Source of the DNA: Dysgonamonadaceae bacterium | Lineage (GTDB): Bacteria > Bacteroidota > Bacteroidia > Bacteroidales > Azobacteroidaceae | Assembly: GCA_031260045.1 (NCBI GenBank) | Contig: JAIRKO010000037.1 | Coordinates: forward strand, 1-41,173 | Reading direction: 5' to 3' | DNA: 41,173 nucleotides | Part shown: positions 9,259-41,173 of the stretch, one piece after another | Numbering within the stretch: position 1 is the stretch's first letter | How the letters are laid out: each line of letters begins with the position of its first letter | The notes under the pieces: model-generated | Database searches by the model: none | The model's input: the letters and a program-made list of their open reading frames with translations, nothing else | What the model was told of the DNA's origin: nothing | Position numbers and translations under genes: made by a program

Positions 9259-9336
9259 GAATACCTAATTGCACAATTTATAAATAGCAACTTGAGTTTT
9301 TTAGTTTATCAAAATCCCGTTGAATTTTTAGAAATG

Positions 9337-26140: not shown

Positions 26141-28000
26141 ATGGCAAACGAACAATACAGCGAACAGTTGGTAGAAATCGAAATGAAAGTCAAGAAAGGC
26201 GAAAATTCTTTTGGTTTCGTGTTTCCGCAAGGCGATATTCAGGGGATTGAGAAATTTGAAAATCTATTGAAAAAAGCAGGTGGAAAACCTGATTTGTGCG
26301 AACTTTCCGATTTCTCAAAAGGCGGAAATGGAAAGGCAAAGCCTGAATATGTTATTACTTTCAATAACGACACTAATACCATTTTAGTCGTGGAATGTAA
26401 GCGTTCCGTCAAAGATCATTCCTCGGAAGATCTTAACAAGCCGAAAAAGTTTGCGGTTGACGGCGCATTGTATTATGCTAAATTTTTGAAAGAAGAATAC
26501 AATGTAGTTGCGATTGCCGTAAGCGGAACAAAAAAGGAAGACTGCAAGGTTTCGACTTTTTATTGGCAAAAAGGGTTTGAAAATTATACGGAATTTACAA
26601 AAATCAATATCATTTTAGAGCCGTTGAACTATTTAAAATTTATCAAGGGCGAAAAAATTTCTATTGCATATTCTCTCGAAGACATACGCAGAACGGCTAT
26701 TGATATGGGCAATAAACTACGAATTGCAAAAGTTACGGCGAATAACAAACCTATTTTCATTGCAGGTATTTTAATTGCTTTACAGGACGAAACTTTTGAT
26801 ACGGAGTATCAAACTGCTACAAATCTTATTTCGCTCGTTGAACGCTTACAATCTGCAATTACACGAGTATTGAAATCCACAAATGTAGAACAGGGCAGGA
26901 TTGACAGTATTTTAAGTACTTTCAACGATGTGGCAAGTTTGCACCATTTTCAAACAACGCCAATGACAACCGATAACTCTTTGCGTTGGTACATTCAGGA
27001 GTTGGATATGAAAATAAAGCCTATGATGAATCATTCCGATTCTTCTATCGATGCTTTGGGTGAATTTTATCAGGAATTTATCAAATTTTCAAACGGCGAT
27101 GACGGAAAAGCATTGGGAATTGTGCTTACTCCGCAACACCTTACCGATTTTATGTGCGAAGTCAGCGGACTGAACAAGAACAGCAAAGTTGTTGATATTT
27201 GCGCAGGTTCTGGCGGTTTTTTGGTAATAGCAATGAGCAAAATGATGAAAAATGCGAACCCGGAAGAAGTGAAACGTATACGGCAACACGGACTTTTTGG
27301 CGTAGAAGCAGACCCTAATATTTATGCTTTGTGTATTGCAAATATGATAGTTCGTCGAGATGGGAAAAGTAATATTCACTATGGCAGTTGTTTTGACGAA
27401 AAAATTATAGCAGAATTACGAAAGCAAAACATTGATATTGGGCTAATCAATCCTCCGTATTCACAGGAAGACTACAATGAATTGGCTTTTGTTGAACAAC
27501 TATTGTCGGTTCTTGCTACTCGCGGCGTTGCGGTGGCTGTTGTGCCTTTGAATTGTGCATTAGGAACTACCTGTAAAGCAGAGCGGGAAAGATTATTTCA
27601 AAAACATACCCTTGAAGCAGTTTTCAGTATGCCAACTGAAATTTTCAATCCTGCGGCTTCTGCCCCGCCCTGCGTAATGGTATGGACGGCAAATGCGCCG
27701 CACCCTGCCGACAAACAAACATTCTTTGGATATTACCGCGAAGACGGCTTTGTGAAACGCAAAAAACTTGGGCGAGTTGATGCTTACGGCAAATGGGAAG
27801 AAATTAAAAATGAATGGCTAAAACTGTATCGCGAAAGAGACGTCAAATCCGGATTATCTGTAAAACATTGCGTAACGCACACAGACGAATGGTGCGCCGA
27901 AGCATATATGGAAACAGATTACTCGAAACTCAATCAAGCAGATTTTGAAAAGAAAATCAAAGAATATGTTGCATTCAAATTCTTAAACAATGTTGAGTAA
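26141..28000 (+). CDS. Restriction-modification fusion protein: nuclease plus N6-adenine methylase (BcgI A-like)
   Basis: A 619-residue protein. Residues 65-90 hold a PD-(D/E)XK-like nuclease core (KPEYVITF, then ILVVECKRSV, with Glu85 and Lys87). The middle is helical. The gamma-class N6 methylase has LTPQHLTDFM, the SAM motif DICAGSGGF (from residue 352) and the catalytic NPPY (from residue 437). A nuclease-methylase fusion with a separate specificity protein is the layout of BcgI-type (type IIB) enzymes, which cut on both sides of their site. A plain HsdM is excluded by the N-terminal ECK domain. The stop overlaps the next start (TAATG). Base composition is more AT-rich than the core genes, suggesting transfer. 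Confidence 0.85.
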   Translation: MANEQYSEQLVEIEMKVKKGENSFGFVFPQGDIQGIEKFENLLKKAGGKPDLCELSDFSKGGNGKAKPEYVITFNNDTNTILVVECKRSVKDHSSEDLNKPKKFAVDGALYYAKFLKEEYNVVAIAVSGTKKEDCKVSTFYWQKGFENYTEFTKINIILEPLNYLKFIKGEKISIAYSLEDIRRTAIDMGNKLRIAKVTANNKPIFIAGILIALQDETFDTEYQTATNLISLVERLQSAITRVLKSTNVEQGRIDSILSTFNDVASLHHFQTTPMTTDNSLRWYIQELDMKIKPMMNHSDSSIDALGEFYQEFIKFSNGDDGKALGIVLTPQHLTDFMCEVSGLNKNSKVVDICAGSGGFLVIAMSKMMKNANPEEVKRIRQHGLFGVEADPNIYALCIANMIVRRDGKSNIHYGSCFDEKIIAELRKQNIDIGLINPPYSQEDYNELAFVEQLLSVLATRGVAVAVVPLNCALGTTCKAERERLFQKHTLEAVFSMPTEIFNPAASAPPCVMVWTANAPHPADKQTFFGYYREDGFVKRKKLGRVDAYGKWEEIKNEWLKLYRERDVKSGLSVKHCVTHTDEWCAEAYMETDYSKLNQADFEKKIKEYVAFKFLNNVE

Positions 28001-28944
28001 TGAAACGGTTAGATGAAATATTTGATATAAAGTACGGCAGTCAATTGGACTTAAATAAATGTGTTATCTGCGAAAAGCCAGAAGGATACAACTTTGTTAA
28101 TCGTAGTTCCAAAAACTGCGGCGTTTCTGCTCGTATTTTAGAAGAAGGAAACAAAAAACCTTTTCCTGCGGGACTTATCACAGTTGCAATGGGTGGTAGT
28201 GTATTATCTTCATTTGTACAACAAGAGCCGTTTTACACGGGGCAAAACGTGAAAGTATTAAAACCAAAACAAGAAATGTCGGATTTGCTCAAACTGTATT
28301 ATTGCTATTGTATTGAGCAAAATATTTATCGCTTTTCAACTTTTGGACGTGAAGCAAACGTAAGTTTTGGCTCTATCATTGTCCCCGATATTGAAGATAT
28401 GCCGCAAGAATTGAATAACATTGAAATTTCTGATTATGAATTTGACAAAAAGCCAATTATTGATAAAAAGATAGAACTGAATACAGAAAAATGGGAATGG
28501 TTTAATTTGTATGATACTTATTTTGAAATGTTTGCTGGGAAATACTACCCAAAAGATAGTTTCAGCGTAGGGAAAACGCCTTTAATTTCGACAAGTAAAA
28601 TAGAAAATGGCGTTATGGCATTTACAGATTTACGCCCAACCTTCAAAGGAAATTGTATCACAATAGGCAAAGTCGAAATGACAACTTTTTATCAGCCACT
28701 CCCTTTTTGTGCAACGGCAGACGTTACCGTGTTAGCGCCTAAATTTGAAATGTCCAAATACTGCGCTTTATTCTTACAAATAATATTAGGAGCAGAAAAA
28801 TATCGTTGGACTTATGGAAATCAAATAAGACTGAATGACTGCCAAAAGATAAAGATCAAACTGCCCATTACGTCTGACGGATTGCCCGATTGGCAATTTA
28901 TGGAAGATTATATCAAATCACTTCCCTATAGTGGCAACATTTGA
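28000..28944 (+). CDS. DNA specificity subunit (HsdS/BcgI B-like)
   Basis: A 314-residue protein of BcgI B size with two target-recognition halves. The first starts MKRLDEIFDIKYGSQLDLNK and contains AMGGSVLSSFV and YTGQNVKVLKP. The second starts WEWFNLYDTYFEMFAGKYY and contains PLISTSKIENGV, ITIGKVEMTTF and CATADVTVLAP. Each half would read one side of a split recognition site. It is translationally coupled to the methylase-nuclease (1-base overlap). Both domains look complete, so the system may be functional. The recognition sequence cannot be predicted. Confidence 0.88.
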   Translation: MKRLDEIFDIKYGSQLDLNKCVICEKPEGYNFVNRSSKNCGVSARILEEGNKKPFPAGLITVAMGGSVLSSFVQQEPFYTGQNVKVLKPKQEMSDLLKLYYCYCIEQNIYRFSTFGREANVSFGSIIVPDIEDMPQELNNIEISDYEFDKKPIIDKKIELNTEKWEWFNLYDTYFEMFAGKYYPKDSFSVGKTPLISTSKIENGVMAFTDLRPTFKGNCITIGKVEMTTFYQPLPFCATADVTVLAPKFEMSKYCALFLQIILGAEKYRWTYGNQIRLNDCQKIKIKLPITSDGLPDWQFMEDYIKSLPYSGNI

Positions 28945-29166: not shown

Positions 29167-29187
29167 AATTTTATTATTTTTCTTATC

Positions 29188-29255
29188 TTTCAAACTCGTA
29201 TCTTTGACATCGAAAACAGTTGGTGACACAAATAAAGGAGTTGACTTCTTTTTTT
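29188..29255 (+). ncRNA. Stray CRISPR repeat piece followed by a terminator (tracrRNA-like candidate)
   Basis: Bases 29188-29220 match 33 consecutive bases of the CRISPR repeat, in the opposite orientation to the arrays at 30788 and 38763. A 14-base spacer follows, then a 6-bp hairpin (29235-29240 with 29245-29250, loop TTGA) running into seven T (29249-29255). A TTTG (29159-29162) and TATCTTTC (29184-29191) with 21 bases between could be a promoter. Anti-repeat plus tail plus terminator is the form of a tracrRNA, but the tail is short. The alternative is a leftover repeat from a lost array. See findings. Confidence 0.45.
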
Positions 29256-30787: not shown

Positions 30788-31507
30788 GCTGTTTTCGATG
30801 TCAAAGATACGAGTTTGAAAGCAATTCACAACCGTTTCCGTGCGTTCCTGTTCGTTGTCAAAGCTGTTTTCGATGTCAAAGATACGAGTTTGAAAGCAAT
30901 TCACAACCAAAAATCCGCGAGAACGACTACGTTCTTGGCTGTTTTCGATGTCAAAGATACGAGTTTGAAAGCAATTCACAACTTATTTAAATTGATTCTA
31001 AATTATAATTCTGCTGTTTTCGATGTCAAAGATACGAGTTTGAAAGCAATTCACAACTTCGTCATTAAAGAAGATGTTATAATTTACGCTGTTTTCGATG
31101 TCAAAGATACGAGTTTGAAAGCAATTCACAACACACTACCGCCCGGGTTCTGGTTCCGGACGGCTGTTTTCGTTGTCAAAGATACGAGTTTGAAAGCAAT
31201 TCACAACGGTTCGGCGCATGTGCATCGTTTAACTTATGCTGTTTTCGATGTCAAAGATACGAGTTTGAAAGCAATTCACAACGTCCAGGGCGCGATGACG
31301 ACGATGGAGAACGCTGTTTTCGATGTCAAAGATACGAGTTTGAAAGCAATTCACAACTAACGCAATTCCGACGCTGCCGGGAAAGGCGCTGTTTTCGATG
31401 TCAAAGATACGAGTTTGAAAGCAATTCACAACCTCTTCTTAATAGCCTCAGCAGCAGCGCGTGCTGTTTTCGATGTCAAAGATACGAGTTTGAAAGCAAT
31501 TCACAAC
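30788..31507. CRISPR. CRISPR array, first half: 10 repeats, 9 spacers
   Basis: The 45-bp repeats start on the plus strand with GCTGTTTTCGATGTCAAAGA and end with GAAAGCAATTCACAAC. Starts are 30788, 30863, 30938, 31013, 31088, 31163, 31238, 31313, 31388 and 31463, and every spacer is 30 bp. Only the sixth repeat has a change (CGTTGTC for CGATGTC). On the minus strand the repeat begins GTTGTGAATTGC, like the long repeats of Bacteroidota type II-C systems as I recall them. No cas gene is present in the window. The last repeat borders the mobile element directly. Reading frames through the array are artefacts. Confidence 0.98.
31490..31507. other. Left attachment site (attL core) inside the last repeat of array half 1
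   Basis: TTGAAAGCAATTCACAAC, repeat bases 28-45. It is identical over 18 bases to 38763-38780 at the other end of the element. Confidence 0.8.
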
Positions 31508-31550
31508 ATAGACTTAATATATTGATAATTAAGTGTTTGATAAATCGCGG

Positions 31551-31568
31551 GTAATAAATGGGTAATAA
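31551..31568 (+). promoter_or_regulatory. Left-end arm-type repeats (2 x GTAATAA)
   Basis: GTAATAA at 31551 and 31562. Four copies of the same heptamer lie at the right end, which suggests integrase arm-binding sites. Confidence 0.4.
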
Positions 31569-31578
31569 TTTTAATCAA

Positions 31579-31617
31579 AAACGCCCAAAATTCACATTTT
31601 GGGGCGTTTCCTTTTTT
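31579..31617. terminator. Terminator hairpin at the left end of the element
   Basis: A 12-13 bp stem with one bulge (31579-31590 with 31597-31609), T-rich on both sides. It would stop transcripts passing between the array half and the element. The rest of 31508-31780 is AT-rich without a gene. Confidence 0.7.
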
Positions 31618-31751
31618 GTCGATTTAAATAAGCGAGTAACAACCCGATTATTTGACTGCAAATGTACAACTTTTTTTATACTTTCAGCGGCAAAGTATAT
31701 ATTTTTTATATTGTTTTTCCTTACTTTCTTTTGTTTGTTATGAAAAACATT

Positions 31752-31759
31752 TATATTTG
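31752..31759 (+). promoter_or_regulatory. -7 box for the cargo genes
   Basis: TATATTTG, preceded by TTTTG at about 18 bases and followed by the ATG at 31781. Confidence 0.5.
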
Positions 31760-31780
31760 CATGGTAAATAGCAAAATTCA

Positions 31781-31966
31781 ATGAAAAAGGAATTAGGTAA
31801 AACATTGATTGATATAGCAAAATTAGTCATCGGCGGGGTTATTCTTGCCGGATTGATGAAACAGGACATACCACCCGTATATCTGTTTCCGGTTGGTAGC
31901 ATTATTTCTATATTAATGATTTGTATCGGACTTGTTTTAATTTCACTTGGTAATAAAAATGATTAA
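31781..31966 (+). CDS. Small two-helix membrane protein
   Basis: A 61-residue protein with two hydrophobic segments (about 9-26, LIDIAKLVIGGVILAGLM, and 33-56, YLFPVGSIISILMICIGLVL) joined by a short polar turn and ended by GNKND. The start follows a good -7 box. I recognise no family. In a replicating element this small protein could be a holin-like, coat-like or toxin-like membrane protein, but nothing in the sequence decides between them. A second tiny membrane protein starts 13 bases after the stop. Confidence 0.6.
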   Translation: MKKELGKTLIDIAKLVIGGVILAGLMKQDIPPVYLFPVGSIISILMICIGLVLISLGNKND

Positions 31967-31979
31967 AAAATAATTTGTT

Positions 31980-32081
31980 ATGGAATTGATTTATTTCTTT
32001 ATCGGATTAGGCGTTTTTGCAATAGCAGCCGGAATTTGGGGGTATTGGGATTATAGACGGGGTATGAAAAAACACGATTAA
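31980..32081 (+). CDS. Tiny single-helix membrane protein (33 residues)
   Basis: MELIYFFIGLGVFAIAAGIW is one hydrophobic helix; the rest (GYWDYRRGMKKHD) is a basic tail. It lies 13 bases after the preceding membrane protein on the same strand, so the two are probably cotranslated. The size and the helix-plus-basic-tail form are like a minor or major coat protein of a filamentous phage, but also like many small regulators or toxins. No family is recognised. Confidence 0.5.
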   Translation: MELIYFFIGLGVFAIAAGIWGYWDYRRGMKKHD

Positions 32082-32279
32082 TAAAAAAACGACCCAAACA
32101 ACCCACAATGTAACTATACCGGAGCCTCAACCCATCACAGAAGTTTTTAACTAATTGATGAATATGTTAACGGGGGCGGCATTAATGACAATAAGATTAT
32201 CCTCGAGATGTTGGATTTGCTGAAAAAAAAAGAGGAGCAAATAGATAACTTGTTGAAAATCAAACAAATAAACAACTGA
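32074..32279 (+). pseudogene. Frameshifted coding remnant
   Basis: Two fragments in different frames read like one protein end. The first is NKKTTQTTHNVTIPEPQPIT followed by EVFN, with its stop at 32152-32154. The second is DEYVNGGGINDNKIILEMLD followed by LLKKKEEQIDNLLK (32157-32279). The coiled-coil ending is common in phage-type repressors, whose HTH part would be missing here. Family not proven. Confidence 0.4.
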
Positions 32280-32362
32280 TTTTAAAGATAAAAATTTAAT
32301 TTATCTTTATCGTCGAATTTTTAGACGACCGGCGCAGGTCGATAAAGTCTGCAAAAAATAAA

Positions 32363-32941
32363 ATGAAAAATTATTTTAAAATGATTGTGTTAATGGGAAT
32401 TGTGTGGACTCTGGGTGTTGGATTGAATGCTTGTAAAGAGGGGGACACCCCGCTGCCTGGCACCGCGGGGGGTGATGTTGTTGGAGAGTGGCAATCTATG
32501 GGATGGGAGGTGGTGGACATCGCGCATCGGGATGCCACGTTAAAAGCTAAGATTACCGATGTGTTTAAGAATTCGGATTGGTTTCAGGATTCTATAAATA
32601 TAGTATCATACCGCGCCGATCATACTATGGGAGTCTGGGATGATGATATATGGTACACGGGGGGTATCTGGAACGATAATGGCAATATATATGCAGTGGA
32701 CAATGAGGGAAACAGAATCCCAGGATGGGATTATATATTTTACATTCAAAATGATATACTTACCGAGTACATCGATTTACTCGACGAGCCTGTCATTAGT
32801 TATATCAACGGGTACTCCTGCGACGAAGAAACAATGGATTATGTTTATAAGAATTCAATTGATGAATTAATTACATTCCGCGATTTAAAATTCACTAAAT
32901 TTAAATTGGCGCATAAGTTTTCCCGCGTTCAATCTAATTAA
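32363..32941 (+). CDS. Cargo lipoprotein, lipocalin-like
   Basis: A 192-residue protein with a lipoprotein signal peptide (hydrophobic residues 6-22, lipobox LNAC, Cys24). The mature start has DVVGEWQSMGWEVVD, reminiscent of the first strand of lipocalin-like Bacteroidota lipoproteins. A beta-rich, Asp- and Trp-rich region follows (WDDDIWYTGGIWNDNGNIYA). It is probably attached to the outer membrane. It contains several codons rare in the core genes (AGG, ATA), consistent with foreign origin. Function unknown. Confidence 0.65.
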   Translation: MKNYFKMIVLMGIVWTLGVGLNACKEGDTPLPGTAGGDVVGEWQSMGWEVVDIAHRDATLKAKITDVFKNSDWFQDSINIVSYRADHTMGVWDDDIWYTGGIWNDNGNIYAVDNEGNRIPGWDYIFYIQNDILTEYIDLLDEPVISYINGYSCDEETMDYVYKNSIDELITFRDLKFTKFKLAHKFSRVQSN

Positions 32942-32978
32942 TATTATAAATATTTGTAAATTAAATAATTAAGTTAAA

Positions 32979-33218
32979 ATGAAAAAGAGGATATTAATTA
33001 TTACACTGTTATTATTTATCCCCATAATCTTGGTCGATGAATCAATAACAATAGCGCAGGGTGAAGATAAAGTGTTGATTTGCAGCGGGAAAAATTCTAA
33101 AAAATACCATTCAAAAAGATGCAGCGGATTAAATAGATGTGGCGGGGATATTATTACATCTACGATGTCGGCGGCTATAAAGGATGGCTACACCCCCTGC
33201 AAGATTTGTTACCGCTAA
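32979..33218 (+). CDS. Small exported protein with a Cys/His metal-binding motif
   Basis: A 79-residue protein with a signal peptide (residues 1-27, ending TIAQ). The mature part follows a recognisable pattern: VLICSGKNSKKYHSKRCSGL, RCGGDIITSTMSAAIKDGY, TPCKICY. The Cys/His spacing (C, YH, C, then PCKIC at the end) is like the Ada-type zinc-binding domain found at the ends of some nucleases and secreted proteins. It probably binds a metal outside the cytoplasm. It is the last plus-strand cargo gene, 37 bases after the lipoprotein gene. Confidence 0.65.
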   Translation: MKKRILIITLLLFIPIILVDESITIAQGEDKVLICSGKNSKKYHSKRCSGLNRCGGDIITSTMSAAIKDGYTPCKICYR

Positions 33219-33237
33219 ATTACAGGGTTATAACTTG

Positions 33238-33304
33238 TTGATATTCAGGTATCTTTATATCTTAATATTATCAATGTAAAGATATAAAGATACTTGAATA
33301 TCAA
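33238..33304. repeat. Long AT-rich hairpin (26-bp arms), copy A
   Basis: 33238-33263 pairs with 33279-33304 with a single G-T mismatch (loop 15). The right arm and loop recur as a direct repeat at 35674-35709. There is no T-run after it on either strand, so it is not a standard terminator. Confidence 0.75.
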
Positions 33305-33359
33305 TGAGTTATGATATTAATGACAAATAAATTACAAGGCGGCAGTAACTTGTTGATTA

Positions 33360-33446
33360 TTAGTATTTATCTGATTGCTGAATATAACGCAGGATTTCAG
33401 CCACATCAATCGGATTAATGCCAAGGTTATTAATTACCTGTTTCAT
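33360..33446 (-). CDS. Possible 28-residue protein
   Basis: MKQVINNLGINPIDVAEILR followed by YIQQSDKY: a compact, well-balanced amphipathic helix-turn sequence with a normal start, downstream of the replication gene on the same strand. Too short to be certain; no family recognised. Confidence 0.35.
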   Translation of the reverse strand: MKQVINNLGINPIDVAEILRYIQQSDKY

Positions 33447-33477
33447 TAATATTCTTATATTATTTTTTTTATTTTAA

Positions 33478-33531
33478 GAAAGACGTTAACGTCTTTCTCT
33501 TTGGTGATTTAAAAAAGACGTTAACGTCTTT
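33478..33531. repeat. Two palindromes GACGTTAACGTC (candidate origin region)
   Basis: The 20-bp perfect palindrome centred on GACGTTAACGTC at 33478-33497 is followed by a second copy at 33514-33531, with CTTTGGTGA repeats between. One copy is kept at 40912-40925 beside the second replication gene. The region 33532-33706 is AT-rich and contains a partial GAGAGGTA/TACCCCCTCTC inverted repeat. Confidence 0.7.
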
Positions 33532-33706
33532 CCCTTTGGTGAGAGGTATACCGCGATTTTCCTGAAAAAAAAATCCTACCCCCTCTCAATTTTCTTTAAG
33601 AAATCTCGTTTTTATTTAATTAATTATTATTTAAATAAAGTCTTTTTTTATTAAAAAATAACAAAAAGGGCATTTTTTTATATTTAATAAAGTAGGGAAA
33701 TGATAC

Positions 33707-34636
33707 TCACCGGGCATACCTCGCTATATCAAAAATTTTCACTTCAATTTCTTTCATCAGGTCGCTTTGGTTTTCAAAATCGGAAACAGCTATCATTTTG
33801 TTTAAGTCGGTTTTTAGCCGAGTGTAATACTTTCTATCTGAAAACACGTTTCTTGCCTTTAATTCACTTAAAAAGTCATCAATTGTACTTTGTCCCGATT
33901 GCTGCAATAAGTGAGCAAATAACGCCGCTTGTGCCTCTTTGGGCGTGGTTATATTGTCTGTCATAAAACTTTGTTTTTTGAGTTTATTGATTGTCTTGAA
34001 TTCATCGTACCAACTTTTAATAACGGGTCGATAGAAATCTTTATCGTACAACTTGGTAGCCGTTAAATCTGTATTAAACTGCTTGTTGAGGCGTTTTGTA
34101 AACCGTAACTCATACCTCAAAAGATTTCTGTTTTGCAAAATAGCCGGTATCTGTGTGCCTTTAACTTTTGCTTCTTTGGTTTTATCATAAAAGCTAATTT
34201 GCCGTTGATGGTTGTTATAATAAAGCGTGTCTTGTGTGGCTTGCAGTCGCTCAAAATATGGCTTTTGCCCCAAACAAACATAATAATCGGCGGGCGGTTT
34301 CTTGGTAGGTAGTATCGTTGAAACGTCCATGCGTGTAACCTTTGCCCGACTTATATCGGTATTCAAACAATCGCTTAGTTTTTTTATAGCCTCTTCAGTA
34401 TATTTTCTTGTTAAAGTATGCAGATTGTCCCCAAAGAAACTTTTTGACAAACTGCCGTGCAATGATATGCCATTTTCAAAAACATTAACGGTATAATCTA
34501 AAATTTTCCCGGTGCAACTATAACCTGATTTTTCATTTTGCCGTTCTGTAATTTCAGATAAACGGGGGACAATATCAAAGGTGCTACTCCCTGATATGTC
34601 CGTCCTGTCTATCCAAAAATTTACCGTATCAAACAT
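33707..34636 (-). CDS. Rolling-circle replication initiator, gpII/gpX-like (copy 1)
   Basis: The frame reaches 34666, but the first ten codons run through a palindrome (34646-34664). The second Met (34636), matching the other copy, is taken as the start, giving 309 residues. Features fit the phage/plasmid gpII/gpX replication family of filamentous phages: TRMDVSTIL, then YFERLQATQDTLYY, ISFYDKTKEAK and LLRYELRFTKRLNKQF, followed by a helical C-terminal part. This family nicks the plus-strand origin. It is the last large gene of the minus-strand element operon. A homologue with identical blocks is at 39808. Confidence 0.75.
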   Translation of the reverse strand: MFDTVNFWIDRTDISGSSTFDIVPRLSEITERQNEKSGYSCTGKILDYTVNVFENGISLHGSLSKSFFGDNLHTLTRKYTEEAIKKLSDCLNTDISRAKVTRMDVSTILPTKKPPADYYVCLGQKPYFERLQATQDTLYYNNHQRQISFYDKTKEAKVKGTQIPAILQNRNLLRYELRFTKRLNKQFNTDLTATKLYDKDFYRPVIKSWYDEFKTINKLKKQSFMTDNITTPKEAQAALFAHLLQQSGQSTIDDFLSELKARNVFSDRKYYTRLKTDLNKMIAVSDFENQSDLMKEIEVKIFDIARYAR

Positions 34637-34645
34637 AATTCTATT

Positions 34646-34664
34646 GTTACCAAAATTTGGTAAC
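34646..34664. promoter_or_regulatory. Palindrome before replication gene copy 1
   Basis: GTTACCAAA-A-TTTGGTAAC, ending 9 bases before the chosen start. It is a candidate operator or mRNA hairpin. The other copy has a different palindrome in the same place. Confidence 0.6.
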
Positions 34665-34700
34665 ATTTACAACTTACTATACGCGCGCGCGAGGCTATTT

Positions 34701-35198
34701 TCATTTTGCCGATTGTCTCAACTTATTTAACGCTTCATTTAATTTTCCATCTTCTAATTGTGCAGCATACCCCATTATCAATTGCCGGGATTTGGGAACG
34801 ATTAAAATTTCAATCGTGTTCAGGTCAGGAGATATAATAAACAAATATCCGTCATTCCGGTTTTCAAAGAACGGGTTATTCTTTCCGCCTTTTAACTCTT
34901 GTGATTGTGGCGGCTCTCCGTAACCTATTATCTGTTCCCCATGTGTTAAATTAATCGTGTATATACTACTAAAATTAACGCTTCCTTTGCATTGCAGCCG
35001 CGTCTCTGCTGTGCTGTTAGGGTTGCATTTGTCGTTCCTCTGGTAGTACATTACAATTTCATTTTTGGCATTTTTTATTTCTTGCAATGGCTTATAATAG
35101 CCTGCCGTTGCCGTAACCACATAACGGGGTGTGATGCTTTCCGAGCCATCTTTTTTAATGGTTTGCCGCCGCGTCAACATTAAATAACAACTAACCAT
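34701..35198 (-). CDS. Unknown element protein, 165 residues
   Basis: No signal peptide. It begins MVSCYLMLTRRQTIKKDGSE and is mostly predicted beta (VTATAGYYKP, INLTHGEQIIGYGEPP, GYLFIISPDLNTIEILIVP), ending in a helix (LNEALNKLRQSAK). The start overlaps the HTH gene by 8 bases and it is followed by the replication gene, so the three are one operon. The same C-terminal 25 residues are left over at 39669-39745 before the second replication gene. This shows the pair is a conserved module, and the protein may be a replication partner or single-strand-binding protein. Family unknown. Confidence 0.7.
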   Translation of the reverse strand: MVSCYLMLTRRQTIKKDGSESITPRYVVTATAGYYKPLQEIKNAKNEIVMYYQRNDKCNPNSTAETRLQCKGSVNFSSIYTINLTHGEQIIGYGEPPQSQELKGGKNNPFFENRNDGYLFIISPDLNTIEILIVPKSRQLIMGYAAQLEDGKLNEALNKLRQSAK

Positions 35199-35508
35199 GC
35201 TTACCCCCTTTCTTTTTCACAGCACTTGTAAGCATGTAATTTTCTGCCTCTGTTTCTATTTCATCAGCGGTTTTAACTTTATGCTTTAACTGCCAAGCCG
35301 TTAGCTCGTCTTTATCAAAGAAAGTAAATTTTCCCCCATCCGATTTGTAATAAGGTATTTTTTTGTAACACGTCAATTTGTATAAGTGGCTTTTACTCAG
35401 TCCTGTAAACAGGCTTGCATCACTCATTGTGAGGGCTTGTTTTGCCACGATTAATGTTAATTGCTTAATTTCTTGCAATTCACGTTTTAAATCGTTTAAT
35501 TCGTTCAT
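35191..35508 (-). CDS. Excisionase-like helix-turn-helix protein
   Basis: A 105-residue protein. An N-terminal coiled coil (LNDLKRELQEIKQLTLIVAK) precedes a MerR/excisionase-type HTH: ALTMSDASLFTGLSKSHLYK, then LTCYKKIPYYKSDGGKFTFF and DKDELTAWQ. This is the HTH_17 layout of Bacteroidota element proteins that act as excisionase or replication regulator. It is the first gene of the hth-unknown-rep operon, with a -7 box at 35624. Whether it controls excision or replication cannot be decided. Confidence 0.75.
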   Translation of the reverse strand: MNELNDLKRELQEIKQLTLIVAKQALTMSDASLFTGLSKSHLYKLTCYKKIPYYKSDGGKFTFFDKDELTAWQLKHKVKTADEIETEAENYMLTSAVKKKGGKHG

Positions 35509-35623
35509 AATTAAAATTTTATTAAATTAATTTTGGTCGTTAGCAGGTAGCCATTACACTCCCGCCGCCGTACCGCTGCCAAATTTTAAATACGGTAATG
35601 GTCGTCTCGTCGATTTGACGGGA

Positions 35624-35631
35624 CAAAAGTA
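35624..35631 (-). promoter_or_regulatory. -7 box of the hth-rep operon
   Basis: TACTTTTG on the minus strand, followed by TCCCGTC. The integrase promoter has CCCCGTC in the same position. The leader is 115 bases. Confidence 0.5.
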
Positions 35632-35647
35632 AGCGTGTGGGAAATGC

Positions 35648-35697
35648 AAAAAAATATCTTTATATCTGATTTTTATCAATGTAAAGATATAAAGATA
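35648..35697 (-). terminator. Terminator of the int-fic operon (hairpin copy B)
   Basis: A 13-bp stem (35655-35667 with 35685-35697) is followed on the minus strand by about seven T. Its right half repeats the sequence of hairpin A. It lies just after the stop of the 219-residue gene. Confidence 0.65.
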
Positions 35698-35724
35698 CTT
35701 GAAAATCAATAAGATATGGGATTG

Positions 35725-36384
35725 TTATTGATTGCTTTCGATTATGTTTTTCAATTCTTTATGATATGCTGAAACAATCGGGCGTTTAAGATTGCCGTTT
35801 TTGTCGGTTATGTAGGTATAGTTTTGTGGTATTAGCGGTTTGCCGTTTGAAAAAATAAAAAGGGAGTTCAACAAGGCTCTGTTTTTTATTACATGGTCTT
35901 CATATCCCAAGAGGCAAAGCAAATCAAGCAATGATTTTTTATTTGTTATTTTCCCGTGTGTGGTACGGTTTGATTTAATCCATTTCAAAGGTTGTGCCGT
36001 TGCATCTTCAATAAATCCCTGTTCCTGTAATGCTTGTAATATATTATCTGGTATTGTTATGGGTTGAGGCTCAGTTGGCTGTTCTGATTTATCTAATAAG
36101 TTCTCTAACTCCGCGTTTATATTTTCAATTTTTTTCTTAATGTTTTCCTCTTTTTTCAAATGTTCCTGTATGCTTGTAATATATCCAAATTCTTCATAGC
36201 GGTTCACCTGCTCCATAGTCTCTATTTCCGTCTTAGTCCCCTTTGGCACATTCGCCCTATTCTGCTTCCTGAACGCCACTAACTCTGTATGTACCCACAT
36301 TCTATTCTTATATTCCCTCTCTAAGTCCGCCCTTAGATTTTTTTTTATTTCCTGAAGTTTTAAAATTTCGTCTAATTTTTTCAT
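35725..36384 (-). CDS. Unknown coiled-coil protein, 219 residues
   Basis: Residues 1-100 are highly charged and helical (LDEILKLQEIKKNLRADLER, EHLKKEENIKKKIENINAEL). The C-terminal half is globular (DNILQALQEQGFIEDATAQP, HGKITNKKSLLDLLCLLGY, YTYITDKNGNLKRPIVSAYH). No known domain is recognised; such proteins occur beside integrases in Bacteroidota elements. It lies 23 bases after fic in the same direction and is followed by a terminator, so it ends the int-fic-unknown transcript. It could be the partner or target of the Fic enzyme, which is inference only. Confidence 0.65.
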   Translation of the reverse strand: MKKLDEILKLQEIKKNLRADLEREYKNRMWVHTELVAFRKQNRANVPKGTKTEIETMEQVNRYEEFGYITSIQEHLKKEENIKKKIENINAELENLLDKSEQPTEPQPITIPDNILQALQEQGFIEDATAQPLKWIKSNRTTHGKITNKKSLLDLLCLLGYEDHVIKNRALLNSLFIFSNGKPLIPQNYTYITDKNGNLKRPIVSAYHKELKNIIESNQ

Positions 36385-36407
36385 ATTCTTATTATTAATC
36401 AGTTAAA

Positions 36408-37184
36408 TCATTGATTATTAGCAGCCTCAACAATCCCCAAATAATTTTCCAAAGCATTTTTAACGGCGTTTGCCACAATCAAATTAAACGCCGCTCGGTT
36501 GCCGTCGGTGTGGCTTTGTTCTAATGCTGTGTAATAGGCTTGTTTTGCCTCATTATTTGCTTTCAGGGACGTTATTATATAGCCTTTGGATAGTAGATAC
36601 AAATTCATCAAAAGCCGTGATGTACGCCCGTTGCCGTCGATAAATGGGTGTATCTTTACTAATTCGTCGTGTAGGTAGGCAGCAATCAAGATGGTATGTG
36701 TAGCGGCTTCTTCCATTGTTTTGTAGTCAATGATAAATTTTTCCATTTGGGGTTCTATCAGGTAAGGTTGAGGCGGCGTGTGTCGGCTGCCTACAATCAT
36801 TACCGGTACACTCCGGTATTTGCCCGCCTGCTGCCTGTTTATTCCGTGTAATACAAGCGCGTGGATTTCCTGTATTGTCCGCTCGGTTATTTCTATATCA
36901 TTGCTTGCAATTTCTTTGATAAACTCAACGGCTTGGGCGTGGTTAATCGCTTCTAAATGTTCCATTATGCTTTTGCCGCCGATAGTAACGCCCTCGCTTA
37001 CTACTAATGCCGTTTCCTGCAAGGTTAGCGTATTACCCTCAATCCGGTTGCTCTCGTAGGTATATTCCATTTCAAACGCGGCTTTAATTTTCCTTAACGC
37101 CTCTGTGTCAAGTGGTCGGATTGCCTGTAAACGGGCTTTTAACAAATCGGCTTCTTCCAATATTTTTTTTAGTTCAGTGTTCAT
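36408..37184 (-). CDS. Fic-domain AMP-transferase with built-in inhibitory helix
   Basis: A 258-residue protein. The Fic motif is complete: HPFIDGNGRTSR, residues 179-190, with catalytic His179. The N-terminal helix carries the inhibitory motif SNRIEG (residues 45-50), where Glu49 blocks ATP in class II Fic proteins. The flap region is GKYRSVPVMIVGSRHTPPQP. The enzyme is therefore expected to be self-inhibited and to AMPylate a protein (or itself) when released. It sits between the integrase and the coiled-coil gene. No separate antitoxin is needed or seen, so a toxin-antitoxin label is not supported. Confidence 0.9.
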   Translation of the reverse strand: MNTELKKILEEADLLKARLQAIRPLDTEALRKIKAAFEMEYTYESNRIEGNTLTLQETALVVSEGVTIGGKSIMEHLEAINHAQAVEFIKEIASNDIEITERTIQEIHALVLHGINRQQAGKYRSVPVMIVGSRHTPPQPYLIEPQMEKFIIDYKTMEEAATHTILIAAYLHDELVKIHPFIDGNGRTSRLLMNLYLLSKGYIITSLKANNEAKQAYYTALEQSHTDGNRAAFNLIVANAVKNALENYLGIVEAANNQ

Positions 37185-37216
37185 AAATATTTTGTTTTTA
37201 ATCCATTTCTATTTAT

Positions 37217-38410
37217 TCATATATTGTTAAATTTTTTCATCGCTTGTGCCAAAGGGGCAATTTGCAGGGCTGCATAATGTTTTTCTGTAATTGCACTGTT
37301 AGAATGCCCCAAAATGCCGCTAATGGTTTTTATATTTTCCCCTAATGCAAGCAGTAGCGTGGCGGCTGTGTGCCGGGCTGTGTGAAAACTGATTTGTTTT
37401 GTAACGCCGCTTTCCCTTGCCCACGATTTTAGAAAAATATTTGTGTAACAGTTTGTAGATAGGTTGAAAATAGCATCTGTACCCGCTGCATCACGCCGAG
37501 CCGGTAAAAATTGCTTTGCTTTGTCGCCGATAGGTAGATATTGCAACGTATTTGTTTTTTGCTGCCGGATGTGCAAACAGGTTTCCCCTGCAAATTCAAC
37601 TATTTTTTCCCACGTTAAACCCCTTATATCTGAAAATCTAAGTCCGGTATAACAGGCAAACAAAAACGCGGCTTTTACACCCGGCTTTTGGCATTCGGTA
37701 TTTTCCAATTTTTTGAGTTCCTGAACCGATAGAAATATAATATCATGGCTTTGCCGTTGTGGTTTCTCACATAACGCCATCGGGTTTATGGTTATAATTT
37801 CCTGCTTTATTGCAGCATTTAAAATTGTTTCAAATACTTTGATATAGTCAATTTGAGTATTGATTTTCAGCGGCGTATGGTCTCTTGTGCTTGTTTGTTT
37901 TTGCAGATAGGTAATAAATCCCTGACAAAACCGTTTATCAATCTGTTTGAAAGTAACACGACGGTTGCCGGTATATTGTTTGAAATGACAAATAAAAGAT
38001 TTGTATGTTAAGGACGTGCCGCGCTCGTTAATTTCCCCGCGCTTGTTAGTCCGCTTTTTGTCGGCTTGCAGTTCTGCAAAGGTAAGAAAATCGGCATTTG
38101 CCGCCTGCTTGGATTGCAGGGCATTATGATTGCCGTTGTTAATTTCAATAATACGCGCCGCCCTGATTGTTTCCGCTTGTCTTAACGTTTCTTTGTCGGC
38201 GTGCTTATTGCCGGTAAGGTATAGTTTCAAAAATTCATATTCATGTATGAGGTTGCCGCCCGTTCCCTGTCCCAGAAATATATCAAGGTAAAGGGATTTA
38301 TTACCTGATTGCAGCGTTTTTTCTCTTAAATAAACGGGGCTTTTTGTCTGATTTTTAACGCCTTTGGGTCGCCCCCTATGCTTTGCATTATTTAATTTTT
38401 TATTACTCAT
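37217..38410 (-). CDS. Tyrosine recombinase (integrase)
   Basis: A 397-residue protein. Parts are an N-terminal arm-binding domain (about 25-95), a SAM-like core-binding domain (about 105-215) and a catalytic domain. The residues of the active site are all present: Arg258 (TGLRFSDIRGL), Lys285, His343 and Arg346 (FHTARHTAA), His369 (GHSNSAI) and Tyr379 (EKHYAAL). It lies nearest the right attachment site, with four arm-like repeats between, and is probably the enzyme that put the element into the CRISPR repeat. It resembles the integrases of Bacteroidota transposons and elements. First gene of the int-fic-unknown operon. Confidence 0.93.
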   Translation of the reverse strand: MSNKKLNNAKHRGRPKGVKNQTKSPVYLREKTLQSGNKSLYLDIFLGQGTGGNLIHEYEFLKLYLTGNKHADKETLRQAETIRAARIIEINNGNHNALQSKQAANADFLTFAELQADKKRTNKRGEINERGTSLTYKSFICHFKQYTGNRRVTFKQIDKRFCQGFITYLQKQTSTRDHTPLKINTQIDYIKVFETILNAAIKQEIITINPMALCEKPQRQSHDIIFLSVQELKKLENTECQKPGVKAAFLFACYTGLRFSDIRGLTWEKIVEFAGETCLHIRQQKTNTLQYLPIGDKAKQFLPARRDAAGTDAIFNLSTNCYTNIFLKSWARESGVTKQISFHTARHTAATLLLALGENIKTISGILGHSNSAITEKHYAALQIAPLAQAMKKFNNI

Positions 38411-38434
38411 TTGTTACTTATTAAATCGACGGGG

Positions 38435-38442
38435 CAAAGTTA
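38435..38442 (-). promoter_or_regulatory. -7 box for the integrase gene
   Basis: TAACTTTG on the minus strand, 25 bases before the ATG. It is followed by CCCCGTC, a motif shared with the hth promoter. Confidence 0.5.
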
Positions 38443-38571
38443 AAACAAAAAAAAGAATAAATAAAAGAAAACAAGCCTTTTTTTGAATTTATTTTTAATT
38501 TTATAATACGATGTATATAAGCATGTTAATTAGCAAGAGAAATAAATTTTGGCGTTTTTTCTGCTATTTTT

Positions 38572-38629
38572 AGCGTCGAGTAATAAAATTTTAGCCGCCG
38601 AGTAATAAAAAAAGTAATAAAAGTAATAA
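38572..38629 (+). promoter_or_regulatory. Right-end arm-type repeats (4 x GTAATAA)
   Basis: GTAATAA at 38580, 38602, 38614 and 38623; the first two lie in a 22-bp tandem repeat (TTTTAGC...GAGTAATAAAA). The same heptamer occurs twice at the left end. The gap 38411-38762 holds no gene. Confidence 0.45.
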
Positions 38630-38680
38630 AAATATTGACATATTAAAAGAAAACAACCCCGCTTTTCAGGGCATAAAAAA

Positions 38681-38698
38681 AGCCGCTAAAAAGCGGCT
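38681..38698 (-). terminator. Hairpin near the right end of the element
   Basis: The stem AGCCGCT (38681-38687) pairs with AGCGGCT (38692-38698); on the minus strand it runs into TTTTTT. It would stop minus-strand transcripts coming from array half 2 into the element. Confidence 0.6.
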
Positions 38699-38762
38699 GC
38701 ATTTACGTTTTATTTATTTTTGTTTTTCTTTTGTTTTATGTTAATTTTAACACTGTGATTTG

Positions 38763-38780
38763 TTGAAAGCAATTCACAAC
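38763..38780. other. Right attachment site (attR core): last 18 bases of a CRISPR repeat
   Basis: TTGAAAGCAATTCACAAC, identical to repeat bases 28-45. The bases before it do not match the repeat; the 30 bases after it are a normal spacer. Confidence 0.8.
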
Positions 38781-39668
38781 TTGCGCCCAAATGTATTAAT
38801 TAACTTTGACGCTGTTTTCGATGTCAAAGATACGAGTTTGAAAGCAATTCACAACAGATAGTTATATATGCGTTTGTCGGCTTCTGCTGTTTTCGATGTC
38901 AAAGATACGAGTTTGAAAGCAATTCACAACATCGCCGGGGCGGCTGCCTTTCCCGGCAGGCTGTTTTCGATGTCAAAGATACGAGTTTGAAAGCAATTCA
39001 CAACTTTCCCACCTGAAGATAATGGGTAAGGTTAGCTGTTTTCGATGTCAAAGATACGAGTTTGAAAGCAATTCACAACTCGCCGGGGCGGCTGCCTTTC
39101 CCGGCAGCGGCTGTTTTCGATGTCAAAGAGACGAGTTTGAAAGCAATTCACAACTAAGTGGCTGCAGTCTATCCGGTTCCTGTGCTGTTTTCGATGTCAA
39201 AGATACGAGTTTGAAAGCAATTCACAACAGAAGCAATCTTCCTTTGCCGCCGCCGGCGGCTGTTTTCGATGTCAAAGATACGAGTTTGAAAGCAATTCAC
39301 AACGCACGGCGTAAGTCGTTTGTTTCTTTAAAGCTGTTTTCGATGTCAAAGATACGAGTTTGAAAGCAATTCACAACTGCGCCACTTCGACGGATGTTTC
39401 GTCGTAGGCTGTTTTCGATGTCAAAGATACGAGTTTGAAAGCAATTCACAACCCGGATTGGCATCCGGTGCGGCAAAATCTTGCTGTTTTCGATGTCAAA
39501 GATACGAGTTTGAAAGCAATTCACAACGAAAATGAAAAACTTAATTATTATCTTAATGCTGTTTTCGATGTCAAAGATACGAGTTTGAAAGCAATTCACA
39601 ACCGTTGCAACAAACTTTCGCACCGAAAAAACGATGTCAAAGATACGAGTTTGAAAGCAATTCACAAC
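38763..39668. CRISPR. CRISPR array, second half: 11 full repeats plus two partial repeats, 12 spacers
   Basis: The same 45-bp repeat and orientation as 30788-31507. It begins with the 18-base repeat end (38763-38780), then full repeats at 38811, 38886, 38960, 39035, 39110, 39184, 39259, 39333, 39408, 39483 and 39558. It ends with a 37-base repeat lacking its first 8 bases (39632-39668). Spacers are 29-30 bp. The repeat at 39110 has one change (GAGACG for GATACG). Spacers at 38931-38959 and 39080-39109 are the same sequence shifted by one base. A truncated element gene starts at 39669 with no spacer between. Confidence 0.98.
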
Positions 39669-39745
39669 ATACAGGGGTTTGCTGCACAATTAGCAGATGG
39701 ACAATTAAACGAAGCGTTAAATGAGTTGAGACAATCGGCAAAATG
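39669..39745 (+). pseudogene. C-terminal remnant of the 165-residue element protein
   Basis: The text reads IQGFAAQLADGQLNEALNEL followed by RQSAK and stop, matching the end of the 34701-35198 protein (GYAAQLEDGKLNEALNKLRQ). Homology begins exactly at the base after the last CRISPR repeat. The N-terminal part is missing. Confidence 0.85.
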
Positions 39746-39783
39746 AAAATAGCCTCGCGCGCGCGTATAGTAAGTTGTAAGTA

Positions 39784-39799
39784 TTGCAGATTTCTGCAA
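39784..39799. promoter_or_regulatory. Palindrome before replication gene copy 2
   Basis: TTGCAGA-TT-TCTGCAA, ending 8 bases before the ATG at 39808. It has the same position as, but a different sequence from, the palindrome of copy 1. Confidence 0.55.
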
Positions 39800-39807
39800 C
39801 AAAGATT

Positions 39808-40734
39808 ATGTACGATACAGTAGATTTTTGGATAAATAGAGTTGGGTTGTCTGGAGCAAGTCCTTTTGGCACCCAACAATATTTGTCTAATATAACGGAA
39901 CGGAATAATGAGAACGGCTACAGTTGCAACGGTAACGTTGGAGATTATAAGATTAATATTTCAGACAACGGCATATCGTTGAAAGGAAGCCTATCAAAAC
40001 ATTACTATGGAGATAATTTGCACACTTTGACACGGCGGGATACCCAGCACGCAATTGAGAAACTAAGCGAACAGTTGCATTTGGATGTGGGAAAGGCAAA
40101 GCCGACACGTCTGGACGTTTCAACGATTGTGTGTACCAGACGACCGGCGGCGGATTATTACAGATGGTTGGGTGCCAAGCCATATTTTGAGCGGGTGCAA
40201 ACCACAACGGACACGGTTTATTATATAAACTATCAAAAGCGACTTTGTTTTTATGATAAAGCCAAACAGGCTGAGGCTAAAAACATACCGATACCGCCTA
40301 TTTTGCAAAACAGCAATCTTTTGAGGTATGAGTTACGGTTTACAAAACGCCTCAACAAGCAGTTTAATACAGATTTAACGGCTACCAAGTTGTACGATAA
40401 GGATTTCTATCGCCCCGTTATTCAAAGTTGGTACGATGAATTTAAATCAATCAAGATAATTAATAATAAAAGTTTTATGACAAACGATATAACAACATTA
40501 AAAGGAGCAAAAGCCGCTATAATTGCATATTCAATGCAAAGACTGGAACAAGATGTTATCAATGAATTTTTAAGTGTTTTAAGAGCAAATAATAGTCTAA
40601 AAAGCCGCTCTGATTACACAAGGGTAAAGGAATATATAAACAAAATGAGGACTGCATCCGATTTTGAAGACAAAAGCGATTTAATCAAAGAGTTGCAAGA
40701 GAAATTTTTTGATATAGCGAGGTATGCCCGGTGA
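39808..40734 (+). CDS. Rolling-circle replication initiator, gpII/gpX-like (copy 2)
   Basis: The start at 39808 (MYDTVDFWINRVG) aligns with the second Met of copy 1; the upstream TTG frame runs through a palindrome. It is 308 residues and intact. Family features are TRLDVSTIV, YFERVQTTTDTVYY, LCFYDKAKQAEAK and LLRYELRFTKRLNKQF. The N-terminal 170 residues are clearly diverged from copy 1. The block from about residue 172 to 215 is identical in protein and almost identical in DNA, so the two genes have recombined. It lies opposite in direction to copy 1 and belongs to a truncated second element continuing past the window. Confidence 0.75.
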   Translation: MYDTVDFWINRVGLSGASPFGTQQYLSNITERNNENGYSCNGNVGDYKINISDNGISLKGSLSKHYYGDNLHTLTRRDTQHAIEKLSEQLHLDVGKAKPTRLDVSTIVCTRRPAADYYRWLGAKPYFERVQTTTDTVYYINYQKRLCFYDKAKQAEAKNIPIPPILQNSNLLRYELRFTKRLNKQFNTDLTATKLYDKDFYRPVIQSWYDEFKSIKIINNKSFMTNDITTLKGAKAAIIAYSMQRLEQDVINEFLSVLRANNSLKSRSDYTRVKEYINKMRTASDFEDKSDLIKELQEKFFDIARYAR

Positions 40735-41173
40735 GTATCATTTCCCTACTTTATTAAATATAAAAAATGCCCTTTTTATTCATTTTTATTCAAAAAAAAA
40801 CTTTATTTAATTTATAATTAATTAAATAAAAAACGAGATTTTTTAAAAAAATTGAGAGGGGGTAGGATTTTTTTTTCAGGAAAATCGCCGTATACCCCCT
40901 CACCAATAGAGAGACGTTAACGTCTTTTTTGAAATAAAAAAAATTAAATTAAATTTTTTTACAGCAACGGCAGGCTGCCAAACGCCCCGTTATGTGGGTA
41001 TGGATATTCCATCAAAAAAAGAAAAATAAGACATTATTATTGTTATTCCCAAAAAACACATACCTTTGCAGCGTAAAAATAAGGAAAATAAAAACAGACT
41101 AAAAGTATTTTTTCTTACAATTTTGGTGCTGTTTTGTTGCTTGATAATTTTTTATACGTTATTATTAACTGTA
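40735..41173 (+). other. Candidate origin region of the second element and window end
   Basis: No clear gene. The part up to 40925 is about 90% like the region after copy 1 and contains a perfect 9-bp inverted repeat (GAGGGGGTA at 40856-40864, TACCCCCTC at 40893-40901) and the palindrome GACGTTAACGTC (40913-40924). A -7 box TACCTTTG at 41061-41068 is followed by a frame open from 41081 to the edge that encodes a hydrophobic signal-like stretch (KVFFLTILVLFCCLIIFY), but no ATG is seen. Confidence 0.55.

Follow-up and report, generated by a model that had tools for sequence, protein, structure and literature searches.

Prophages have reportedly been found integrated into the clustered regularly interspaced short palindromic repeat (CRISPR) loci of Streptococcus pyogenes, in work attributed to Varble et al. 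(2021, Nat Microbiol, doi 10.1038/s41564-021-00996-8), and further precedents for integration into CRISPR arrays may exist. Among the Bacteroidota, a known class of integrative elements, the NBU1 type, is directed toward transfer RNA (tRNA) genes. Here we examine a 7.27-kb element (31508-38780) that lies inside a CRISPR array on contig JAIRKO010000037.1 (C51) of a Dysgonamonadaceae bacterium (GCA_031260045.1), whose genome assembly measures 1.99 Mb in 57 contigs and is 81.6% complete; the whole contig, 41,173 nucleotides long, is called the window. The element very probably entered through its own integrase, with the handle end of a CRISPR repeat serving as bacterial attachment site (attB). 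A preliminary description of this DNA had stated that no element of this kind was described, a claim that has to be dropped since integration into CRISPR arrays is already in the literature, as PMC10359306 indicates. The S. pyogenes prophages are mentioned in two papers citing the original report (PMC10359306 and PMC10651486).

The split array and the ends of the element

The window contains a single CRISPR array with a 45-bp repeat, at 30788-39668, which is divided by 7,273 bases of inserted DNA. The features that define the insertion are listed here.

30788..31507, minus strand: array half 1, 10 repeats of 45 bp and 9 spacers
31463..31507, minus strand: complete repeat at the left junction
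31490..31507, no strand: left core copy TTGAAAGCAATTCACAAC, 18 bp, end of the complete repeat
31508..38762, no strand: element body (the excision span that restores the array is 31508-38780)
31550..31642, no strand: candidate arm-type sites RGTAAYAA, n=3, left-end cluster
37217..38410, minus strand: tyrosine recombinase, PF00589 (9e-21), PF13102 and PF17293, all above cut-off
38579..38629, no strand: candidate arm-type sites RGTAAYAA, n=4, right-end cluster
38763..38780, no strand: right core copy TTGAAAGCAATTCACAAC, 18 bp, handle of spacer 38781-38810
38781..39668, minus strand: array half 2, 12 spacers and 12 repeats, the final repeat 8 bases short

An exact-match scan of the window bore out the coordinates, junctions and repeat count of the preliminary description. 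Exact copies of TTGAAAGCAATTCACAAC number 23, every one on the plus strand; 22 are inside repeats (10 at 30788-31507 and 12 at 38811-39668), and a solitary one is at 38763-38780. Judging from the pairing of the repeat with the trans-activating CRISPR RNA (tracrRNA), the CRISPR RNA (crRNA) sense of the array is the minus strand. Repeats are spaced 74-75 bp apart in both halves and 66 bp ahead of the terminal repeat at 39624, which has lost its first 8 bases.

At the left junction the entire 45-bp repeat is present, and at the right junction only the final 18 bases of that repeat, followed by a regular 30-bp spacer (38781-38810). Deletion of 31508-38780 sets this spacer directly after the repeat at 31463-31507 and gives normal spacing, as had been proposed earlier. 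Identity between the junctions is exactly 18 bp: the base 5' of the core is T in the repeat and G at the right junction, and the base 3' of it is A in the element and T in the spacer, where identity ends. The 18-bp core is thus found at both ends of the element and is continuous in the reconstructed empty site. This also supports the earlier proposal that the element is of the tyrosine-recombinase type, with the 3' part of the CRISPR repeat, its handle end, as attB. From base composition, the chance of meeting the 18-mer anywhere in the window is about 2e-6. Elsewhere in the assembly, with at most one mismatch allowed, it occurs at one place, C11:81177, with one mismatch, and we read this copy as the tracrRNA anti-repeat upstream of cas9. 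The cas9 gene of this genome is on contig C11 (TIGR01865, 422 bits versus a cut-off of 100); we class the host system as type II, and its subtype is likely II-C.

The recombinase beside the right junction had been called intact, and its open reading frame (ORF), with the family matches given above, is indeed uninterrupted; the start codon lies 353 bp from the right core. By eye, the catalytic motif of tyrosine recombinases is complete, with R, K, HxxR, GH and Y all in place. Joining the element ends gives a reconstructed element attachment site (attP) of the form TGTGATTTG-TTGAAAG-CAATTCACA, in which the arms are complementary at 8/9 positions around 7 bp, a layout that would correspond to the usual look of a tyrosine-recombinase core.

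These data suggest that entry took place by conservative site-specific recombination between the attP of the element and the handle end of one CRISPR repeat. Strand exchange would occur within or near TTGAAAG, between the imperfect inverted arms TGTGATTTG and CAATTCACA, and the RGTAAYAA copies near both ends may act as arm sites. Excision would yield a circle that could be replicated by the replication protein (Rep) of the element.

The position of the core in the repeat was compared with the predicted RNA duplex. Repeat bases 1-19 (crRNA sense) are predicted to pair with the tracrRNA upstream of the cas9 on C11, and the duplex energy of the 18-bp core alone, -24.6 kcal/mol, is close to that of the whole repeat, -26.0 kcal/mol. 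Because the core matches this predicted crRNA:tracrRNA duplex, the duplicated sequence would be the crRNA handle. The repeat also holds TATCTTTG, a promoter-like box that agrees with the Bacteroidota -7 box TAnnTTTG as given in PMC7366714. For type II-C arrays of Flavobacterium, promoters encoded in the repeats have been proposed, and in Flavobacterium psychrophilum CN46 an array split by the insertion sequence (IS) IS256 is transcribed on both sides, according to PMC10309648.

After the insertion, all 21 spacers keep an upstream repeat (the outermost shortened) and a downstream handle, in crRNA sense. The choice of site would spare the array, as the spacer on the right retains its handle and the repeat on the left remains whole with its TATCTTTG box. 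Since handle and left repeat are kept, both halves are predicted to still yield crRNAs, i.e., the array should continue to work after insertion. The interruption of crRNA production at the junction, expected in the preliminary description, is therefore unlikely: nothing is missing from the left repeat, and of the 19 base pairs predicted to form with the tracrRNA, 18 fall within the 18 bp kept on the right.

Relatives directed to the tracrRNA gene

Relatives were searched for with the window recombinase in 58 genomes (56 matched, mostly distantly), with Rep in 393 genomes of the order (15 matched), and with the Rep of Bacteroidia bacterium PG1894_40 (BNYG01000036.1; G006), a member of the same genus, in 38 genomes of that genus (5 matched). 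Several relatives are elements that jointly carry the recombinase, a helix-turn-helix (HTH) protein, a 165-aa protein and Rep. No match to the window recombinase was found in the viral contigs or genome contigs searched, none to the G006 recombinase in the viral contigs searched, and none to the window Rep in the phage records searched. The window Rep gave one weak match (24%) among plasmids. Among phages, 29 records match the window recombinase, the best at 38%, mostly unannotated fecal contigs. An integrase tree left the window recombinase unplaced, and the recombinases of the relatives that occupy tracrRNA genes are 36% identical to it.

In G006, the element is bounded by a perfect 33-bp direct repeat (L057:2460-2492 and 9295-9327), of which the copy at 9295-9327 lies inside the tracrRNA gene and is followed by cas9, cas1, cas2 and an array. 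Bacteroidia bacterium MS502-62 (BNTW01000020.1; G423), also of the same genus, carries an element nearly identical to that of G006, with an identical integrase and a Rep of 94% identity, the recombinase gene being split by 16.5 kb of other DNA as a result of a later insertion. At each end of this element lies a copy of the tracrRNA site, matching over 22 bp with one mismatch, and cas9, cas1 and cas2 are adjacent. The Cas9 proteins of G423 and G006 align significantly only in pieces of 23-40% identity. In OttesenSCG-928-B11 (recombinase 87%), the tracrRNA tail is found at the recombinase end, and the contig ends before the far end. In G006 and G423 the direct repeat spans the tracrRNA nexus and tail, with cas9 on the anti-repeat side. 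Of the host-system genes, Cas9 was seen in the genome of the window and Cas1 plus Cas2 in G006 and G423. The left flank of the window array hardly resembles that of G006 above control (64/106 columns alike, control 62/118).

The G006 insertion points to how a tracrRNA gene could survive as a target. The cas9-side copy retains the tracrRNA anti-repeat and nexus. In its new closing hairpin, one arm lies in the 33-bp repeat common to both ends, and the loop and second arm are element DNA; the original host tail, a hairpin followed by a U run, is now at the far end, 6.8 kb away. A like exchange of tails is seen in G423, where by eye the host hairpin differs and the element side is nearly the same. 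Folding of the G006 RNA is well below that of shuffled controls (z -7.4), and Rfam at gathering scores reported no tracrRNA in these loci. By analogy, the element would supply a replacement 3' end for the tracrRNA, as tRNA-directed elements do for the tRNA. Termination at the element-derived tail may be weaker, because it is without a long U run.

Other relatives have chosen other targets. A relative with a broken recombinase (L055; Fic 78%, Rep 68%) has a 15-bp AT-rich direct repeat across the stop codon of a gene, presumably ychF. For L089 (recombinase in two ORFs), L091 and L092, the direct repeats are at the 3' ends of tRNA-Met genes. Element ends were sought and not located in L056, L090 and L096. 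Judged by the ends that were found, site choice shifts within the family, and two of the chosen sites are the RNAs of CRISPR-Cas9. The cores of the window element and G006 differ; read from the recombinase side, they share by eye only a short inverted GTTGTGAA. Because of this difference, we infer that the two site choices arose as separate shifts.

The tracrRNA target is conserved. Its 18-base sequence TTTTCACAACGGAATAAT, with at most one mismatch, was found in 122 of the 393 genomes of the order (131 places), as compared with 9 for a reversed control pattern. Of these 131 places we inspected 49, along with 9 of 41 places in the genus; the choice was non-random, with two-hit genomes and contig ends taken first. 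The 58 inspected sites comprise 44 complete tracrRNAs, 11 without a following anti-repeat and 3 cut by a contig end, and cas9 was found in 41 of the 58 loci; contigs L138, L141 and L185 end within the tracrRNA site. Ten of the 11 half matches were rejected as chance, by their unrelated surroundings (by eye) and lack of cas9, so some one-mismatch places of TTTTCACAACGGAATAAT are chance occurrences. In the order and genus scans, only G006 and G423 have two copies of the site on one contig.

Two further loci from these scans concern the same site. On a short contig from another family of the order (G141:C27; L140 2250-2500), a genuine tracrRNA tail runs into foreign DNA and no recombinase is present, and the same genome has a complete tracrRNA with cas9 on contig C4; a further tracrRNA insertion is a possible interpretation. 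Locus L124 was rejected as an attachment case, as its cas9 and tracrRNA merely neighbour a recombinase that adjoins a gene read by eye as transfer-messenger RNA (tmRNA). ARAGORN reports no tmRNA there.

Taken together, the relatives would make a comparable choice with the second RNA of the system, inserting into the tracrRNA gene and drawing part of its new 3' hairpin from element DNA. The strategy would resemble that used with tRNA genes, in that a short conserved RNA gene serves as attB without being killed. We consider it likely that one Bacteroidia element family has adopted both Cas9 RNA genes as attachment sites (the handle in the window; the tracrRNA nexus and tail in G006, G423 and OttesenSCG-928-B11), carrying a mimic of the tracrRNA tail, and that element and host both gain from the RNA's working. 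That an element coding for a recombinase has inserted into a repeat is well supported by the sequence data, and the seemingly tracrRNA-directed relatives are the more surprising part.

Gene content and neighbouring loci

The element carries four plus-strand ORFs at its left and six minus-strand genes at its right, the last of which is the recombinase given above. The others are as follows, together with a second Rep-bearing remnant beyond the array.

31781..31966, plus strand: 61-aa ORF, DUF6722 (PF20482, 6e-12), hydrophobic by eye
31980..32081, plus strand: 33-aa ORF, hydrophobic by eye, weak match to a function-less PHROG family
32363..32941, plus strand: 192-aa ORF, lipoprotein-like start by eye, no family match
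32979..33218, plus strand: 79-aa ORF, weak match to a PHROG without assigned function
33707..34666, minus strand: Rep, Phage_CRI / G2P-type replication protein (PF05144, 7e-16)
34701..35198, minus strand: 165-aa protein, accompanies Rep in several relatives
35191..35508, minus strand: HTH_17 protein, excisionase-like (PF12728 above cut-off; phrog_66 1e-4)
35725..36384, minus strand: 219-aa protein, weak PADLOC match to PtuA (3e-4)
36408..37184, minus strand: Fic-domain protein (PF02661, 5e-22)
39669..40958, plus strand: second Rep-element remnant, Rep ORF 39784-40734 open, 61% identical to the element Rep

The 219-aa protein has no match in Pfam, PHROG or NCBIfam. Scans of the ten element ORFs against Pfam and PHROG returned no Zot/pI-type assembly ATPase or coat genes, no relaxase or coupling protein family, and no Cas1 or Tns-type transposase; phage structural genes were not found in the element. 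An inovirus or other phage was therefore rejected, as the G2P-type Rep is present yet phage assembly and coat families are missing from the element ORFs, and a casposon or CRISPR-associated transposon was ruled out because such families are absent from the scans.

The remnant at 39669-40958 begins exactly at the end of the shortened last repeat and is oriented opposite to the main element. The same genome has a third family member (L054; G000:C56, 16107-19477), with a broken recombinase and an open Rep; two tRNA-Asn copies lie about 400 bp ahead of the recombinase, and the locus runs off the contig.

Around the array, an isolated exact 33-base piece of the CRISPR repeat occurs in opposite orientation at 29187-29219, about 1.6 kb to the left. 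Spacers 38931-38959 and 39080-39109 have 28 bases in common (one protospacer, shifted by 1 base), and spacer 31358-31387 overlaps the other strand of this protospacer by 14-16 bases. By their overlap, these three spacers are best read as one target sampled repeatedly. Directly left of the CRISPR region, at 26141-28944, a type IIG-like methyltransferase (PADLOC 4e-101) and specificity-subunit genes form a possible small defence cluster. An irregular array also occurs elsewhere in the genus, in G027:C122. Between two complete repeats, about 560 bp with a small ORF take the place of a spacer (L117 4583-5205), and at another point two repeats are fused, the first having lost its end together with the spacer (L117 6856-6905).

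Repeat- or tracrRNA-like sequence is also found in phage loci. On a 61-kb viral contig (IMGVR_UViG_3300013936_000003; L123 975-2505), a tyrosine recombinase gene is separated by about 200 bp from a tracrRNA-like sequence that is complete, having both anti-repeat and terminator, and folds with z -4.1; the 5 kb examined contain no match to the G006 Cas9. The tracrRNA-like sequence could be either a phage attP mimic or a phage tracrRNA. Riemerella phage PJR4 (L126 3600-3638), and likewise PJL1 and PJX6, has a 39-base tracrRNA-like sequence that is 87% identical to that of the viral contig, and in PJR4 it lies about 700 bp from an annotated integrase. The exact 19-base CRISPR-repeat handle occurs in 12 phage records, 11 labelled Riemerella (RAP44 twice) and one Shigella phage Henu10. 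In Riemerella phage RAP44 (L125 3970-4080) the handle belongs to a mini-array next to dinD, made up of a repeat, a 30-base spacer and a partial repeat. No annotated integrase was found within 4 kb on either side of the 19 bp in RAP44-type phages (four records, one ending early); these phages were rejected as attachment cases and are closer to the class of Racrs.

Alternative explanations and comparison with known systems

Several observations weigh against integrase-driven entry at a dedicated CRISPR site. The RGTAAYAA motif, whose clustering speaks for such entry (of 17 copies in the window, 14 are in the element and 11 of those 14 within 800 bp of its ends), was picked post hoc, after it had been noticed near the ends of relatives. 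The excisionase-like HTH_17 protein scores 23.1 bits against TIGR01764 (NCBIfam excisionase domain), under the cut-off of 28.8. Simple insertion by the recombinase does not account for the orientation of the inverted remnant at 39669. A 16-base core, at up to one mismatch, is found in 17 of the 38 genus genomes, several with single hits, and just one repeat insertion was seen; no repeat is occupied by a recombinase element in the other arrays inspected, which are those of G423 and G027 and a short one in G006. Relatives of the window recombinase above 49% identity were not found, so there is no second case of its site. The preliminary description had pointed to relatives at a non-CRISPR site as the counter-case; such relatives do exist, but their recombinases are all less than 50% identical to that of the window, which makes the comparison inapplicable. 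A rival idea is that the repeat is a secondary site, struck once through its resemblance to another attB that the recombinase normally uses. The lone repeat insertion and the lack of a close relative for comparison would fit it, and so would Tannerellaceae Roe453_bin14 (L114), whose recombinase is 81% identical to the tracrRNA-type integrase of G006. Its element, cut by a contig end, has an intergenic end with only partial likeness and no tracrRNA. The perfect identity of element end and repeat over 18 bp, and the rarity of the 18-mer in the rest of the assembly, where the single other copy has a mismatch, make a secondary site quite improbable.

The insertion might instead be an attack on immunity that silences part of the array to the gain of the element, which is what the title of the S. 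pyogenes prophage report proposes for that species. This title and citing text (PMC10359306) are in line with the idea, as is the second Rep-element remnant that abuts the last repeat of the same array. Such an attack is nonetheless unlikely, as handle and complete left repeat are retained, the IS-split array of F. psychrophilum is transcribed on both sides (PMC10309648), and even with 6 mismatches allowed no spacer among the 21 matches the element. It is less credible still that element and array were brought together by chance recombination (illegitimate or homologous) or by a chimeric assembly. The draft is fragmented (57 contigs, 81.6% complete), but a clean attachment structure with recombinase and end motifs would hardly arise in this way, and the same architecture recurs in relatives at other sites and in other assemblies. 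An 18-bp overlap is also shorter than the usual assembly words, which counts against a chimera.

If integrase-driven entry at the handle and its tracrRNA counterpart are both true, RNA genes of an immune system would serve as attachment sites for the mobile DNA they should police, and would be spared. As with tRNA genes, mobile DNA would then find in the defence system a landing site that is stable and widely conserved. Such elements could hold Cas9 loci under selection, and they could be a source of recombinases for inserting DNA into CRISPR repeats or tracrRNA genes. This raises the question of how they relate to the local Cas9 system, which they might escape, tolerate or depend on.

No report of a tracrRNA as integration or attachment site was found in the open-access literature, which is weak evidence of absence; the nearest, in PMC10309648, is IS982 between tracrRNA and cas9 in F. 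psychrophilum. The IS256 insertion in strain CN46, described in the same source, resembles the window element in halving an array of which both halves are there transcribed, and is unlike it in having a transposase and target-site duplication and no dedicated attachment core. Solitary repeat units, or Racrs, are alike in that mobile DNA bears a piece of CRISPR repeat; they act as RNA, according to PMC10651486, whereas the repeat piece in the window is one of two attachment copies and adjoins a recombinase.

The S. pyogenes prophages, so far as the citing texts describe them, share with the window element the entry of mobile DNA into a CRISPR array via a repeat-like sequence. Here, instead, we find a 7.3-kb Rep-coding element in a Bacteroidia host, with no phage structural genes found, and it differs also by its relatives that use the tracrRNA gene. 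The tRNA-directed elements of the NBU1 type, and with them L089, L091 and L092, are alike in having a tyrosine recombinase with a SAM-like domain. As in the present family, their core is short, lies in the 3' part of an RNA gene and leaves that gene in place after insertion. What sets the present family apart is that attB is a CRISPR repeat or a tracrRNA, and that a repeat array offers many equal sites.

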